The notes beneath the pieces are model-generated. The model was given only the letters and a program-made list of their open reading frames with translations, was not told the DNA's origin and did no database searches. Of a DNA stretch of 36,718 bases, positions 21,946-29,118 are shown in pieces. The stretch is from Myxococcaceae bacterium (lineage in GTDB: Bacteria; Myxococcota; Myxococcia; Myxococcales; Myxococcaceae): the NCBI GenBank assembly GCA_022616315.1, contig JAKEEX010000562.1, positions 1-36,718 of the forward strand, in the 5' to 3' direction. Numbering within the stretch: the stretch's first letter is position 1; every line of letters starts with the position of its first letter. The position numbers and the translations under genes are program-made.

Positions 21946-23607
21946 GTGGCGGCAGCGCTCTTTCTGGCGGCGGTGCTCGCGGCCGGCGCGCCGCACTTCG
22001 TGTCCCCGCTCGTGAAGGTGCGGCCCGGGAAGGCGCCGGCGCACGTGTCGGGGGAGCTTTCCCTGGCGCGCGGCGAGTGCGAGGGCCTGCAGCTCTACGT
22101 GCCACCACCGGCCGAGGAGGTGTGGGTGGAGGCGCAGCCGCTCCGCTCGGGACAGGACACCCTCGCCGTCACTCCGTTCCAGGTGGGCTACGTGCCCGTC
22201 ACCACGCCCTCCAACGCGATGGGTGCCACCGGCGCCTGGCCGGACCCCTTGTTGCCGTTGAGCCGTGACAGGGCCCTGCGCTCCCGGCCCGAGCGCCCTG
22301 CGGTGCTCTACCTGGAGCTGTGTGCGCCGGAGAGGCAGAAGCCAGGCAGGTACCAGGGGACGGTGCGTGTGTACCTGGGTACACGCGCGAAGGAGCTCCC
22401 GCTGCGCGCCACGGTCCACCCCTTCGCGCTTCCTGCCACCTCGTCACTTCCCAACTCGTTCGGCGTCTCGCTCCACAGCATCGCGAAGGGGCACGGCCTG
22501 GATGCGTCCACGCCGGAGGCTCGCGCGCTCCTGCACGCCTACGTCCGCGAGCTCCTCGCGCACCGGGTGACGCCGCACGGGATGAGCATGGAGGCGCCCC
22601 CGGTGCGCTTCGAGTCGGGGCGCGCACGCGTGGACTTCCGCGCCTACGACGAGGAGGTGGGTCCGTACCTGGATGGGACCGCCCTGCCCTCCGGTGCCCG
22701 CTTCACCACGCTCGACGTCCGGGACTCGAAGGAGGCGCGCACGGACGAGGAGAAGGCCGCGTACTACCGCGCCTTCCGGGAGCACGCCCTGGAGAAGGGC
22801 TGGCGTGCGCAGCTCTTCTTCTACGCGAAGGACGAGCCGCGCCCGGAGGACGTCCCGCTCGTGCTCCAGCAGGCAGCGCGGGTGCGCCGGGCGGGAGGAA
22901 TCTCCGTGCTCGTCACGTCGCCGCTCGAGGAATCATTGCGAGAGGCCGCGGACATCCTGACGCCGCCGCTCAACTGCTTCTTCCCGCGCGCGGGTCCTCC
23001 CACCTGCCGCAACCCGATGAGCACGGCCTCGCTGCGTGGCCGACTTCCGAGCGCGACGCGCGTGTTCTGGTACCAGAGCTGTCTCGCCCACGGTTGCACC
23101 GGAGGGCCTGCAGCGGACCCTGCCGTCGAGCGGGCCTTCTCGGGCTGGGCCTCGTACATGGTGGACCACCCTGCCCCGCTCAACCGCGCCATGGGACCGC
23201 TCGCCTGGCGCGCCCAGGTGGACGGAGAGCTCTACTTCGACACCGTCCACGCCTTCGGCACGCAGGACCCATGGGAGGGCGTCTTCGCGTTCGGTGGCAA
23301 CGGCGACGGGACACTCCTCTACCCCGGGACACCGGCGCGGCTGAAGGGCGCGGCGCACCAGCCCGTCGTGTCGCTCCGCCTCAAGCACCTCCGCGATGGG
23401 CTCGAGGACTACGAGTACCTGAGGCTGCTCGCGGAGCTGGGAGACCGGGCAGGGGCGGATGCGCTCGCGGCGCGCCTGGCACCGACCGGCTTCCAGGTGA
23501 GCCAGGACCCGGTGGTCTGGACCCAGGTGCGTGCCGAGGCCACGCGGCGGCTGAATGCCCGCTGGCGTGCCACTGAATCCCGCCGCGGCGCGCCCGTCCC
23601 GAAGTGA
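21946..23607 (+). CDS. Exported putative glycoside hydrolase, GH123/DUF4091-like
   Basis: GTG 21946 has AGGAGG five nucleotides upstream. The 553-aa product has a short signal peptide (MAAALFLAAVLAAGAPHF). An N-terminal beta domain (about 20-160) is followed by a barrel-like catalytic region. The acidic pair D296-E297 in FFYAKDEPRPEDVP corresponds in position and context to the Asp-Glu pair used by GH123 beta-N-acetylgalactosaminidases. The C-terminal signature GTLLYPG then SLRLKHLRDGLEDYEYLRLL is typical of DUF4091 (the GH123 catalytic region). Substrate is not predictable; an amino-sugar glycan is a family-based guess. It overlaps by 4 bp a possible GTG of the next frame. Confidence 0.8.
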   Translation: MAAALFLAAVLAAGAPHFVSPLVKVRPGKAPAHVSGELSLARGECEGLQLYVPPPAEEVWVEAQPLRSGQDTLAVTPFQVGYVPVTTPSNAMGATGAWPDPLLPLSRDRALRSRPERPAVLYLELCAPERQKPGRYQGTVRVYLGTRAKELPLRATVHPFALPATSSLPNSFGVSLHSIAKGHGLDASTPEARALLHAYVRELLAHRVTPHGMSMEAPPVRFESGRARVDFRAYDEEVGPYLDGTALPSGARFTTLDVRDSKEARTDEEKAAYYRAFREHALEKGWRAQLFFYAKDEPRPEDVPLVLQQAARVRRAGGISVLVTSPLEESLREAADILTPPLNCFFPRAGPPTCRNPMSTASLRGRLPSATRVFWYQSCLAHGCTGGPAADPAVERAFSGWASYMVDHPAPLNRAMGPLAWRAQVDGELYFDTVHAFGTQDPWEGVFAFGGNGDGTLLYPGTPARLKGAAHQPVVSLRLKHLRDGLEDYEYLRLLAELGDRAGADALAARLAPTGFQVSQDPVVWTQVRAEATRRLNARWRATESRRGAPVPK

Positions 23608-23654
23608 CGTCAAACGCGGCGACGGAACCTGCGCCGCCGCTCCACGAGGACACG

Positions 23655-24506
23655 ATGCGAACGGCCCTGGCGGCACTGCTCCTTCTGGCGGGTGGACAGG
23701 CCCACACGGCGCCGTCACCGCAGCAGCCGGAGCTTCCACCCGTCCCGTCGGACGCCGAGTGCCGCTCGCTGCCGGGCCCGCTCCTGCCTCCGGCCTTCGC
23801 TCCCGGCGAGACGCTCGAGCTCGACCTGGACGCGATGGGCGCCAACGCGGGGAGCATGACGATGCGCGTGCTGCCCGTGAAGGACGGGCTGCTCCCACTG
23901 CAGGTGGATGCGCGGACCCACACGTTCCTCTCCAAGCTCCGGCGGATTCAGGGGACGGGCACCAGCTTCGTCCACCCGCGCACGCTGCGGCCGCGGCGCT
24001 ACCTGGAGGACTCCGTGGAGAACGAGGTGGCGCGGAGGGTCGAGGTCACCTTCACGCCGAGGAGCCGCCGCGCGTCGGTGTCGTGGCGCTCGGGAGGCCG
24101 CGCCGGGAAGGTGGAGCTGACGTACGGAGGCACCGAGCCCCTGGATATCGCCGGCGCCGTCTACCTCGTGCGGCAGCTGCCGTTGAAGGAGGGCCAGCCC
24201 CTGTGCGTGGACGTCTACGGGGGGCGCCGCATGTGGCGATTGTTCGGGAAGGTGGCGAAGAAGGAGCACGTGAGCCTGCCTGTCGGGGAGTTCGAGGCGT
24301 GGCACCTGGAGGCCACCGCGGCACGACTGGACGCACCGCGGGTGCGACGTGACGTGCACGTGTGGATCTCCGCGGACGACCGCCGTCTCCCGCTGGCCGC
24401 CGTGGGAACCACCGACCTGGGCGTCATGCGCGCCACCCTCACCGCCTACTCGCGTCCCGGAGCGCCCGCCGTGCGCAGCGAGGGCGCAGGCCAGATGAAG
24501 TGGTAG
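23655..24506 (+). CDS. Exported DUF3108-like protein, second copy
   Basis: ATG 23655 with GAGGA six nucleotides upstream gives a 283-aa protein with a clear signal peptide (MRTALAALLLLAGGQAHTA). A GTG at 23604 overlapping the previous stop is in frame, but would put 17 hydrophilic residues before the signal, so the ATG is preferred. The mature protein contains GETLELDLDAMGANAGSMTM, FLSKLRRIQGTGTSFVHP, VYLVRQLPLKEGQPLCVDVY and DVHVWISADDRRLPLAAV. This follows the same order as the DUF3108 protein at 21115, but with low identity. Function unknown. Its stop is 3 bp from that of the convergent repeat-protein gene. Confidence 0.75.
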   Translation: MRTALAALLLLAGGQAHTAPSPQQPELPPVPSDAECRSLPGPLLPPAFAPGETLELDLDAMGANAGSMTMRVLPVKDGLLPLQVDARTHTFLSKLRRIQGTGTSFVHPRTLRPRRYLEDSVENEVARRVEVTFTPRSRRASVSWRSGGRAGKVELTYGGTEPLDIAGAVYLVRQLPLKEGQPLCVDVYGGRRMWRLFGKVAKKEHVSLPVGEFEAWHLEATAARLDAPRVRRDVHVWISADDRRLPLAAVGTTDLGVMRATLTAYSRPGAPAVRSEGAGQMKW

Positions 24507-24509
24507 CGC

Positions 24510-26366
24510 TCAAGGTCCAGGCGCAGGCACGGCGTTGAGAGGCACCACCGGAGGCACACGCGACACGGGCACGACCGGCCGTGCATTGAGCGGCACCACG
24601 ACCGGACTCCCGCTGCCACTGGACGCAAGGCCCATGGAGCTCGCGTGAGCAGCGCCGCTGTTCGACACGCCATCGGACTGCGCCATCTTCGGTGCCGGCA
24701 GCGCGCCAGGGCCGAAGGGCTCGGTATTCACGCCGGGGCCGAACGCAGAGGACGCGGCGACTCCCGGCCCGAATGCGGCGCCGTTCGTCCCCGGGGTCTG
24801 CACGACTCCAACCTCCGCGCGTCGAGGAGCGAGCGTGCCCGCGCCATCCGACAGCGGCCGACCGATTTCGAGCACCGGCCCCGTCTCGAGCACGAGCTTC
24901 GGTCCGAACTGACTGGCGGGCGCACCACTGGCATCGATGCGGAGCACGGGTTCAGCGGAGACCCCAATCGTCGCGCCCACAGGGATGTCGAGCACCGGCG
25001 CCGCTTCGACCGCGCGCACAGCCGTGCCGTCGATGGTGAGCGACGGCTCCGCGGACACATCCAGCAGGGGACCCGGCTCGAACCTCAGCGCCGGTCCACC
25101 GTCCAGGTCGAGCACAGGGCCCGTCTCGAAGCCGAGGTCCCCTCTTCGTAGCGGCACCGGAGGCTCGAGCGGGAGCGCATTGAGCGGCACCGGTCCCCCC
25201 TGCAGCGGCGGTGGACTGCCCTGGAGAGGCACCGGGCCGCCGATGAGCAGGCCTGGACCGTCGAGGATCAGAGCAGGACCTCCCAGGAGCATTGGAGCCC
25301 CGCCGAGGAGCAGGGGCACGCCACCGAAGAGCAGGTCCACTCCGCCGAACAGGGGAGGCACGCCGCCCGCGAGCGGAGGCGGTCCGCCAAAGAGCGGAGG
25401 CGGTCCGCCGAAGAGAGGCTCGGGGCCTCCGAAGAGCGACAGCGGTCCCCGGATGAACGCCTCGAGGCGCGAGCGGGGAGTGGCATCCACCGGCGCCTGG
25501 GGGCCCACGCCCAGGCGCAAGGCGCGCTCATCCCGCGGAAACTCCGGCGCGGGAAGCGTGGGCAGCGGGACGCCCGGGAGCACGTCGAATCTCCGTCGTC
25601 CCGGACGGACCGAGATCATCCACTCCGAGCGCCACTCCTCTCCTGCTGCGTCGTCCTCTCTCGATGCGAGCGACTCCGCATCGTCCCCGGGCGTGGTGCC
25701 CCGCTCGGTCACGAGCGCACCTTCGGGTGCGAGGACGACGCCGTCTTCGAACGTGACGATGAACCCTCTCTCGAACGTGAAGCGGAGCTGTCCCTGCGGG
25801 AACGGAGACCGCGCGAGGCCTTCCACCACCACGTGGAAGCCAGGGTCGTCCTTCATCCACTGCGGAGGGTCCTGAGCTCCGTCGCTTCCCGCCACGACTG
25901 CGACCCGGACGTGGATGACCGCGTCGTCCGTCACGAGCTGGCCGTTGCGGAGCACCCGTCCCCTCCCCGACACCGAGATGCGTGCTGCGGGCGGCGCTCG
26001 GGTGCACAACCCTCTCACCCTGTCCCTATTCCAGGGGGAGAGGGGAGATTGGAGCGGGAGGCAGCGCTCCACGATGGCGTCACCTTCCGCGCGCTGGAGC
26101 TCCACCTCGAGCTCTACTCCCTCGCCCACGAGCACCGCGCGGAACGCCACGGCGTCCCCGGACGAGGAACCCGGAGGCGTCGCGCGGCCCTCGAGCTCGA
26201 GCTGCGCGTCACCGCGCACGCGAGCGGCCTTGCGGGTGAAGCTCCCCGGTCCAACGAGCACCTGCGCAGGAGCGTCCTCCACGCGCGCCGAGACACCCGG
26301 GCCCCCCACCTCCGCGGCCCCGGTCAGCAGGCCCAGCAGCCCGACCCACACCCACCAGGCGCCCAT
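24510..26366 (-). CDS. Exported protein with tandem 7- and 8-residue repeats
   Basis: The 618-aa product begins with a signal peptide (MGAWWVWVGLLGLLTGAAEV). Residues about 25-260 form a beta-rich domain (FRAVLVGEGVELEVELQ, HVVVEGLARSPFPQGQLRF, RGFIVTFEDGVVLAPEGAL) with cysteines C102 and C121. Residues 307-397 are thirteen consecutive heptads of form G-[PVA]-x-x-L-x-G. Residues 408-503 are twelve consecutive octads of form G/E-P-x-L-x-hydrophobic-x-x. The tail has three FGPG motifs and two VVPLNA motifs. Synonymous codons vary between repeats, which argues for selection on the protein. Residues 108-119 are encoded by a dispersed palindromic element. No family is recognised. ATG 26364-26366 follows AGGAGG and GGGAGG. 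A surface or fibrous role is a guess. Confidence 0.72.
   Translation of the reverse strand: MGAWWVWVGLLGLLTGAAEVGGPGVSARVEDAPAQVLVGPGSFTRKAARVRGDAQLELEGRATPPGSSSGDAVAFRAVLVGEGVELEVELQRAEGDAIVERCLPLQSPLSPWNRDRVRGLCTRAPPAARISVSGRGRVLRNGQLVTDDAVIHVRVAVVAGSDGAQDPPQWMKDDPGFHVVVEGLARSPFPQGQLRFTFERGFIVTFEDGVVLAPEGALVTERGTTPGDDAESLASREDDAAGEEWRSEWMISVRPGRRRFDVLPGVPLPTLPAPEFPRDERALRLGVGPQAPVDATPRSRLEAFIRGPLSLFGGPEPLFGGPPPLFGGPPPLAGGVPPLFGGVDLLFGGVPLLLGGAPMLLGGPALILDGPGLLIGGPVPLQGSPPPLQGGPVPLNALPLEPPVPLRRGDLGFETGPVLDLDGGPALRFEPGPLLDVSAEPSLTIDGTAVRAVEAAPVLDIPVGATIGVSAEPVLRIDASGAPASQFGPKLVLETGPVLEIGRPLSDGAGTLAPRRAEVGVVQTPGTNGAAFGPGVAASSAFGPGVNTEPFGPGALPAPKMAQSDGVSNSGAAHASSMGLASSGSGSPVVVPLNARPVVPVSRVPPVVPLNAVPAPGP
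24858..25145 (-). repeat. Twelve tandem 8-residue (24-nt) coding repeats
   Basis: Residues 408-503 keep an 8-residue register without a gap. Clear units are GPVLDLDG, GPALRFEP, GPLLDVSA, EPSLTIDG, APVLDIPV, EPVLRIDA, GPKLVLET and GPVLEIGR. Units at 448-455, 464-471 and 480-487 are degenerate. Alternating hydrophobic residues suggest short beta strands. Confidence 0.75.
25176..25448 (-). repeat. Thirteen tandem 7-residue (21-nt) coding repeats
   Basis: Residues 307-397 read as uninterrupted heptads such as GPEPLFG, GPPPLFG, GVPPLFG, GVDLLFG, GVPLLLG, GAPMLLG, GPGLLIG and GPVPLQG. Leu at position 5 is kept in nearly all units, with Ile once. Gly is at position 1 in all units but one. Codon choices differ between units. 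Confidence 0.85.
26011..26045 (+). repeat. Dispersed 35-nt palindromic element, copy 2 (intragenic)
   Basis: Matches the minus-strand reading of 11969-12003 at 31 of 35 positions; both contain CTCACCCTG and CCAGGGGGAGAGGGG. It lies inside the repeat-protein gene, encoding residues 108-119 (PLSPWNRDRVRG) between its two cysteines, and leaves the frame open. The hairpin arm is weaker here because of substitutions at 26028 and 26030. Confidence 0.7.
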
Positions 26367-26510: not shown

Positions 26511-27029
26511 CTAGATGAGGCCGCGCGCGCGGCGAATCTGCTCGACGGTCTTGTTGTACTCGATGTCGAACGCGGAGGTGCCCTCCTGCAGGTGCTTCAG
26601 CCGGGCGCGCGCCTCCTTGTCGATCTCGTCGTCCACGTCCAGGTGCTTCTTCATCACGGCGAAGACCTTCTGACGGATGACGTTGTCCGCTGAGAACACC
26701 TCCTCCACGTTCCGGCTGATGAGGAGGAACTCGATCATCTGGTTGATGACGTACTCGACGCCCTCTTCGCCCATCTTGAAGCCGCGGACGTCCGCCATCT
26801 CGCGCTTCACCTGGTTGAACTTGCTGTAGTCGTAGCCCCGCCGCTCGAGCGCCTCGCGCGTGGCCTGGTTCACGCGCTCCTCGTTGGCCAGGTACTCGCG
26901 CATGATGGCGGACAGGTCCATCTCGGCGTCGGCCACGCGCATGGGCTCCACCTCGATGTCCCCGTCCTTCATCAGGGCCTGGACGCACTCACGCGAAATG
27001 ATGGGGATGACCTTCGGATAGAGCCGCAT
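26511..27029 (-). CDS. DUF507-family protein
   Basis: The 172-aa soluble protein begins MRLYPKVIPIISRECVQALM and continues with DIEVEPMRVADAEMDLSAIM, then a second helical half with FKMGEEGVEYVINQMIEFLL and QKVFAVMKKHLDVDDEID. This is the two-part layout of DUF507, a small family seen in deltaproteobacteria and Aquificae-type bacteria with no assigned function. ATG 27027-27029 is the conserved N-terminus; a longer in-frame start at 27107 would overlap the promoter-like elements. The gene has its own promoter candidate and terminator and lies downstream of uvrC on the same strand. It is mostly helical, with no membrane segment. Confidence 0.82.
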   Translation of the reverse strand: MRLYPKVIPIISRECVQALMKDGDIEVEPMRVADAEMDLSAIMREYLANEERVNQATREALERRGYDYSKFNQVKREMADVRGFKMGEEGVEYVINQMIEFLLISRNVEEVFSADNVIRQKVFAVMKKHLDVDDEIDKEARARLKHLQEGTSAFDIEYNKTVEQIRRARGLI

Positions 27030-27168: not shown

Positions 27169-29118
27169 TCAGGACTCCGGGGCCGGTTCCGCGGGGTCCT
27201 CCGCGGCGCGCTCGCCGGCGTCCGCTCTCGCATCCTCCAGGGAGGCCTCCCGCACCGCGTCCTCGGTCTCGTCCTCCGCGTCCCCGTGGAGGTGTGCGTG
27301 GACGCGCTCGGCCACGGCGCGGCCCACCCCCTCCACCGCCGCGAGCTCCTCGACGCCCGCCTCGCGCACCCGCTTGAGGCTCCCGAAGTGACGCAGTAGC
27401 GCCTTGCGTCGCGCCTCCCCCACCCCCGGCACCTCGTCGAGCTCGGAGGTGAGCGTGCGTCGGCGCAGCACGCGCTGCTGGAAGGTGATGGCGAAGCGGT
27501 GCGCCTCGTCACGCATGCGCGTCAGCAGGAAGAGCTCGGGGGAGCTCTGTTTGAGCACCACCGGGTCCTTCCGGCCGAGCAGGAAGACGCGCTCGGGGCT
27601 GCGCGCGCTCGTCGCGTCGCGGTCCACCACCTCGAGGTCGCGTGACTTCGCCAGGCCCACCAGGTCCACACCCTCCACGCCCGCGTCCTTCATGGCGGCC
27701 TGCGCGCTCGCCAGCTGTCCCTTGCCGCCGTCGATGACGATGAGGTCCGGCAGGCTCCCCTCGCGCCTGCCCCGCTCGAAGCGGCGCCGGAGCACCTCGT
27801 ACATGGAGGCGAAGTCGTCGTTGCTGGTGACGCTCTTGAGGTGGTAGCGCCGGTAGCGCGACCTGTCCGTCTCGCCGTCGGTGACGGCCACCTGGCTCGC
27901 GACGATGGCGCTCCCCTGGAAGTGCGAGATGTCGAAGCACTCCATCCTGCGCGGCAGGTTGCGCAGGTGCAGCCGCTCCTTGAGCCGGAGGAGGAGTCCC
28001 TCCGTCTCGTCCCGGCTGCGCTTGTGCTCCTGGGACGCCTGCTCCGCGTTGCGTGACGCGAGCTGCACCAGCGCGTGCTTCTCTCCGCGCTGCGGCACCA
28101 GCACCCGCACCCGTGCGCCCCGCCTCTCGCCGAGCATCTCCGCGAACGACTCCTGTCCCTCCACGGCGAGCGGCAGGAGCACCTCCTCGGGCACGAAGGT
28201 GTCGTTCTCGTAGTAGAGGTTGACGAAGCTGCCGAGCAGCTCCTCGTCGGGGAACTCCTGTCCGCTGAAGGGGAAGGCCTGCCCACCACTGAGGCGGCCC
28301 TGACGCACCCAGAGCACGTACACCAGGAGCCGGTCCGCCTCGCGCGCGAAGCCGAAGACGTCCCGGTCCACGAAGTCGGTGGTGGCCACCTTCTGTCGCT
28401 CGAGGCTCCGCTCGATGGCCAGGAGCTGGTCCCGCAGGCGTGCGGCCTCCTCGAACTTCAGCTGCGCCGCGGCGCTCTTCATGCGCCCGCGCAGGCCGTC
28501 CAGCAGCTCCGTGCCCCTCCCCTCCAGGAACAGGAGCACCTCCCGCACGCTCCCGTGGTAGTCCTCGCGCGGCACCTCCAGGACGCACGGCGCCGGGCAG
28601 CGTCCGATCTGGTGCAGCAGGCAGGGCCGGCTCCGGTGGTGCAGCACGTGGTCCGTGCACGTGCGCAGCTGGAAGTAGCGGTTGACGAGGCGCAGCGTCT
28701 CGCGGATGGAGGACGCGCTGCTGAAGGGACCGAAGTAGCGCGCCCCGTCCTTCTGGATGCGCCGCACGACCTCGAGCCGCGGATAGTCCTGCCGCGTGTC
28801 CAGGCGCAGGCAGATGAAGGCCTTGTCGTCGCGCAGCTGGACGTTGAAGCGCGGCTTGTGGAGCTTGATGAGCTGCGCCTCGAGGAGGAGCGCCTCCTTC
28901 TCGGTGCTCACGAGCACCGTCTCGATGTCGCCGAGGAGCTGCTCCAGGAACCCCACGAAGGCGCGCGTGTCCCCGGTCCGTGTGAAGTAGCTGCGCACGC
29001 GGCTGCGCAGGTTCACCGCCTTGCCCACGTAGAGGATGGCCCCCCCGCGGTCCTTCATCAGGTACACGCCGGGCTCGGTGGGCAGCGCCTCGAGCTTCTC
29101 CTGGAGCCACGCCTCCAT
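27169..29118 (-). CDS. uvrC: Excinuclease ABC subunit C
   Basis: The 649-aa nuclease makes the two incisions of nucleotide-excision repair. It has an N-terminal GIY-YIG domain ([19 protein letters not shown], residues about 16-34) and a UVR helical hairpin that binds UvrB ([20 protein letters not shown]). A cysteine cluster lies near residues 154-177 ([19 protein letters not shown]). The C-terminal RNase H-like endonuclease domain ([32 protein letters not shown]) and tandem helix-hairpin-helix motifs ([18 protein letters not shown]) follow. An acidic tail of about 38 residues ([11 protein letters not shown] onward) extends past the HhH. It starts 11 bp after uvrB, so uvrB-uvrC is an operon. 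Confidence 0.95.

Follow-up and report, generated by a model that had tools for sequence, protein, structure and literature searches.

A variant repeat tail in a conserved, uncharacterised Myxococcaceae protein encoded beside uvrC

A gene in a contig of a Myxococcaceae bacterium (JAKEEX010000562.1; the window, meaning the whole stretch of DNA analysed here, comprises 36,718 nucleotides) encodes a protein in which thirteen seven-residue units are followed by a tract of eight-residue units, and the locus raises the question of what kind of protein this is and where its repeats came from. The repeat array is real, and what is new is a variant tail within an uncharacterised, conserved family; a conserved domain with a fast-evolving tail of low complexity is an ordinary kind of thing.

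The gene and its two repeat tracts

The gene occupies positions 24510..26366, as a sequence-only reading of the window had correctly reported. It lies on the minus strand, and its intact frame encodes 618 amino acids from an ATG start. Both a profile and its match to relatives identify it as an orthologue of a Myxococcaceae family linked to uvrC and a DUF507 gene. These two genes lie upstream on the same strand: the DUF507 gene at 26511..27029, counted from an MRLYPK start within an open frame that continues to 27107, and uvrC at 27169..29118. On the other side are two convergent plus-strand genes, one for a DUF3108 protein (23604-24506) and one for a protein with a borderline match to a GH123 catalytic domain (21946-23607). 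A search for a sigma-70-type promoter or a terminator revealed neither.

The protein begins with a hydrophobic stretch (residues 1-20, 26307..26366), a possible signal peptide that was modelled by AlphaFold2 as a helix at residues 3-14. It contains a hydrophobic core and no basic n-region, a feature missing from most family members as well, and inspection for an AXA-type cleavage site found no clear-cut one. The earlier description of the protein as exported draws on the hydrophobic N-terminus and is weakened by the missing basic residues; export is nonetheless probable. Next come a conserved domain (residues 23-215, 25722..26300), predicted to be beta-sandwich-like, and a non-repetitive linker (residues 216-306, 25449..25721) that is predicted to be disordered. 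The heptads, a ten-residue joint (LPLEPPVPLR, residues 398-407, 25146..25175) and the octads follow, and the C-terminal tail (residues 504-618, 24513..24857) carries three FGPG and two VVPLNA motifs, both of which had been noticed at the protein's end. The shorter PLNA motif occurs three times in the protein (shuffle p 5e-5).

The heptads (G-[PVA]-x-x-L-x-G; residues 307-397, 25176..25448) keep exact register through all 13 units, with glycine in column 1 and leucine in column 5 of 12 units each and glycine in column 7 of 11. Identity at lag 7 is 0.643 (z 11.8), against a 99.9th-percentile maximum of 0.364 in shuffled sequences, and none of 2000 shuffles scored as high; the unbroken seven-residue periodicity claimed for this tract is real and far above chance. 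The consensus is GPxPLxG, with examples such as GPPPLFG and, as the last unit, GPVPLNA, and the tract is 24% proline and 26% glycine (2P+G fraction 0.75). Where two heptads share a residue, the codons differ in 56% of pairs, compared with 61% expected for independent draws. Furthermore, pN/pS between heptads is 0.60 versus 0.96 in codon-shuffled arrays, and the G, L and G columns are the constrained ones. Tandem-repeat detection at the DNA level covers the array only in part (5.5 copies, 73% matches), which fits old units.

The octads (residues 408-503, 24858..25145) are looser. They have a register, with hydrophobic residues in columns 4 and 6 and often a proline in column 2, and polar and hydrophobic residues alternate in the fashion of beta strands. 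The sequence-only reading had reported an unbroken eight-residue periodicity, but 4 of the 12 units (RGDLGFET, TAVRAVEA, GATIGVSA and SGAPASQF) fit the register poorly. Because identity is 0.159 at lag 8 (z 2.6) and reaches a clear 0.287 at lag 16 (z 6.7), a 16-residue unit describes the tract better. The tract is poor in proline and glycine (11.5% and 13.5%; 2P+G fraction 0.37), and a pN/pS of 0.98 between units, versus 1.12 in codon-shuffled arrays, indicates little constraint. The proposal that the repeats are an old expansion kept by selection therefore fits the heptads, by their codon divergence and lowered pN/pS, but is weakly backed for the octads.

An uncharacterised family downstream of uvrC and DUF507

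As had been claimed, no named family matches the protein: searches of Pfam, NCBIfam, PHROGs and PDB sequences all came back blank. A whole-protein search returned two weak N-terminal matches (best E 7.4e-8) from a different Myxococcaceae genus, both immediately 3' of a uvrC-DUF507 gene pair, as in the window. A collection likewise queried with the whole protein returned no relatives because the window member is too divergent; they were found by synteny instead, with DUF507 as anchor, and 22 orthologues (including the window protein) were read. The gene order uvrC-DUF507-gene was present in every one, and each of the 22 starts with a hydrophobic stretch, can be aligned over its N-terminal domain and carries a long tail of low complexity. 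A small gene that lies 3' of the family member in many relatives was not seen in the window.

A profile of the N-terminal domain (the region of residues 1-215), used without the anchor, matched 68 of 96 Myxococcaceae genomes, or about 70%, at positions beside the same DUF507 coordinates, and found nothing convincing among the remaining genomes of the 195 searched in the phylum. The window protein matches this profile with an E value of 2.4e-63, a figure to be read with the fact that the profile includes the window sequence; positions invariant in the alignment likewise include the window protein by definition, as it was among the aligned sequences. Among the members it is divergent, sharing about 30% identity with the rest; its version of the motif RNGQLLTD is RNGQLVTD, and EPRGFIQF reads FPQGQLRF. 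Sequence and synteny together establish the window gene as a fast-evolving orthologue of a single-copy, unstudied Myxococcaceae protein encoded beside the DNA-repair gene uvrC. Its third-position GC is about 0.80, compared with 0.96 in the adjoining uvrC, and is lowered in some orthologues too; this suggests relaxed codon selection or fast evolution.

Named members occur in Myxococcus xanthus (AM003, L073), M. vastator, Pyxidicoccus, Corallococcus, Archangium and Citreicoccus. In M. xanthus uvrC is MXAN_2633 (PMC12288472), and a search of a collected set of papers found no mention of the candidate family tags MXAN_2631 and MXAN_2635. One further record, titled Comamonas sp. KCTC 72670 (L070), is probably mislabelled, since its locus is typical of Myxococcus, with 89% identity. 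On a tree of uvrC and DUF507, presence of the gene requires two changes when genome G024 is scored as lacking it. Downstream of DUF507 in G024 (L053, contig C66, 1-1254) lies a strongly diverged relative or remnant (E 9.8e-14), possibly decaying, with family-like pieces spread over two frames.

Matches to the repeats themselves led to no additional relatives. Comparison of the repeats with phages and plasmids by tblastn gave no match, and matches within the window's own genome were discarded as short low-complexity sequence. Heptad-like matches in a genome from another family of the order (G043) were also rejected as related proteins, being DNA tandem arrays in multiples of 21 bases where examined, with several frames containing stops. 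That genome has many dispersed arrays (loci L010, L013, L015, L017, L021 and L028), heptad-like in some frames (MIGGRAT, SIVGGQR), and the two examined (L013 and L015) have tandem units of 21 or 42 bases; they resemble a satellite spread through the genome rather than a family of proteins.

Origin of the heptads and nature of the tail

Nearly all complete orthologues carry a C-terminal repeat with a period of 15 residues, in two to four copies by eye. The repeat is of the type LLGTPAPLNAGTPAP, as in a tail reading LLGTPAPLNAG TPAPLLGTPAPLNAA, and divides into an 8-residue and a 7-residue half (TPAPLNAG and TPAPLLG). The window protein lacks such an array, its heptads and PLNA motifs resemble the repeat of its relatives, and no other orthologue read carries a comparable heptad array. 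Unit pattern persisting while the tail differs among related myxobacteria had been proposed as a mark of a modular protein, and the orthologue tails follow that pattern. Since the orthologue linkers hold further lineage-specific repeats, everything after the folded domain is hypervariable across the family; of the genomes read, this one alone combines heptads with octads.

The P-x-P-L core is common to the heptads and the 15-residue repeat. Against a profile of orthologue tails the heptads score 33.3 bits, versus 3.2 +/- 2.3 (maximum 10.5) for residue shuffles, and of 5039 column permutations just 13 score as high, several of these being rotations of the true column order; octad scores resemble those of shuffles. 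Unrelated proline-rich frames reach up to 87 bits against the same profile, and descent of the heptads from a multiplied 7-residue half of the repeat is for that reason likely rather than shown. The competing view, that heptads and octads are a new low-complexity insertion in the linker, independent of the 15-residue repeat, with the VVPLNA end as the only counterpart of the family tail, is a minority possibility that deserves some weight. Both tracts precede the C-terminal PLNA motifs, the heptads standing before the extreme C-terminus at which the relatives have their repeats; relatives' linkers bear independent repeats of their own, the octads find no counterpart in the tail profile, and proline-rich low complexity matches that profile easily. 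Against an independent insertion, the last heptad is GPVPLNA, and core and residue order both agree with the family tail. It is highly improbable that frameshift, decay or misassembly in a draft genome explains the tract. The lowered third-position GC would fit such an origin, although some orthologues share it, as would the confinement of the heptad array to one genome; the frame, however, runs open to a single stop with the family motif PLNA in frame at its far end, and the heptad pN/pS, along with nearly saturated synonymous differences, speaks against assembly error or recent slippage.

The remaining alternative concerns structure. The suggestion of a beta-solenoid or fibrous fold, in which the two tracts, folded as a solenoid or beta-roll, would make up a rigid stalk or a fibre on the surface, has in its favour that unit length is constant with a single column kept strictly hydrophobic, as well as the strand-like alternation of the octads and the constrained heptad columns. 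An AlphaFold2 model built with a 23-sequence alignment places a beta domain, confident for the most part, within residues 21-200 (ten-residue strand blocks 71-95, loops weaker), but pLDDT falls below 50 over most of residues 213-608 and is about 33-45 for the bulk of both repeat tracts, a low level that could also stem from a shallow alignment. Folded alone, the tracts gave a mean pLDDT of 43.4 and a pTM of 0.13, so no regular beta coils are predicted with or without an alignment. Foldseek comparison of the model with the PDB yielded no match at E <= 0.001, in a search weakened by the disordered tail. Most units contain proline, the sequence libraries gave no match, and orthologues do without both tracts; a solenoid is accordingly improbable, and the model does not bear out the fold originally proposed.

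The explanation that we favour, with moderate confidence, is a beta domain, probably exported, whose flexible tail is hypervariable and rich in proline and glycine; the heptads of that tail would derive from a reduced family repeat, and the tail would act as a disordered spacer. The protein comprises the hydrophobic N-terminus, a beta domain (predicted fold, about 190 residues) and a long tail rich in P, G, T and A; here the 15-residue array has most likely been reduced to its 7-residue half and multiplied to thirteen copies, which the looser 8/16-residue tract follows. On this view the folded domain would most likely bind something or play a structural part outside the cytoplasm. The predicted disordered tail would be a hydrated spacer that can extend and so determines reach or flexibility, free to drift in length and unit provided that the G, L and G positions keep returning. 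Elastin stays disordered and hydrated through its high content of proline plus glycine (PMC5703643), and by that analogy a flexible spacer is the best reading of the heptads; with their elastin-like composition, weak self-association is also possible. The thirteen-heptad tail, unusual as it is, would then probably be just a stretched spacer. A bolder and improbable idea is that this is an envelope protein whose tail material is swapped between lineages, such that an elastin-like heptad block and then a beta-prone block here replace the 15-residue repeat, and the envelope would bear a naturally occurring polymer of two blocks.

Comparison with known systems

The family, M. xanthus included, is widespread in the Myxococcaceae yet has no Pfam or NCBIfam profile. 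Its conserved position and hypervariable tail make it an easy target for knock-out, and the tail amounts to a small natural experiment on unit-length change in protein spacers.

Short-unit beta-solenoids (pentapeptide, hexapeptide and RTX) resemble the window tracts in having short units of fixed length with one strictly hydrophobic column, but the window tracts are proline-rich, with no library match and no predicted structure. Elastin-like elastomers offer a comparison only for how the tail may work: the heptads likewise consist of short P/G units with aliphatic residues and are high in both P and G. There is no homology, however, and the window protein has a separate folded N-terminal domain and octads poor in P and G. 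The third comparison is the uvrC-DUF507 family of the Myxococcaceae, with which the window protein shares gene order, the N-terminal domain, a proline-rich tail and the P-x-P-L and PLNA motifs; the relatives carry a few C-terminal 15-residue repeats, whereas the window protein, at the low overall identity given above, carries thirteen heptads and a loose octad tract.
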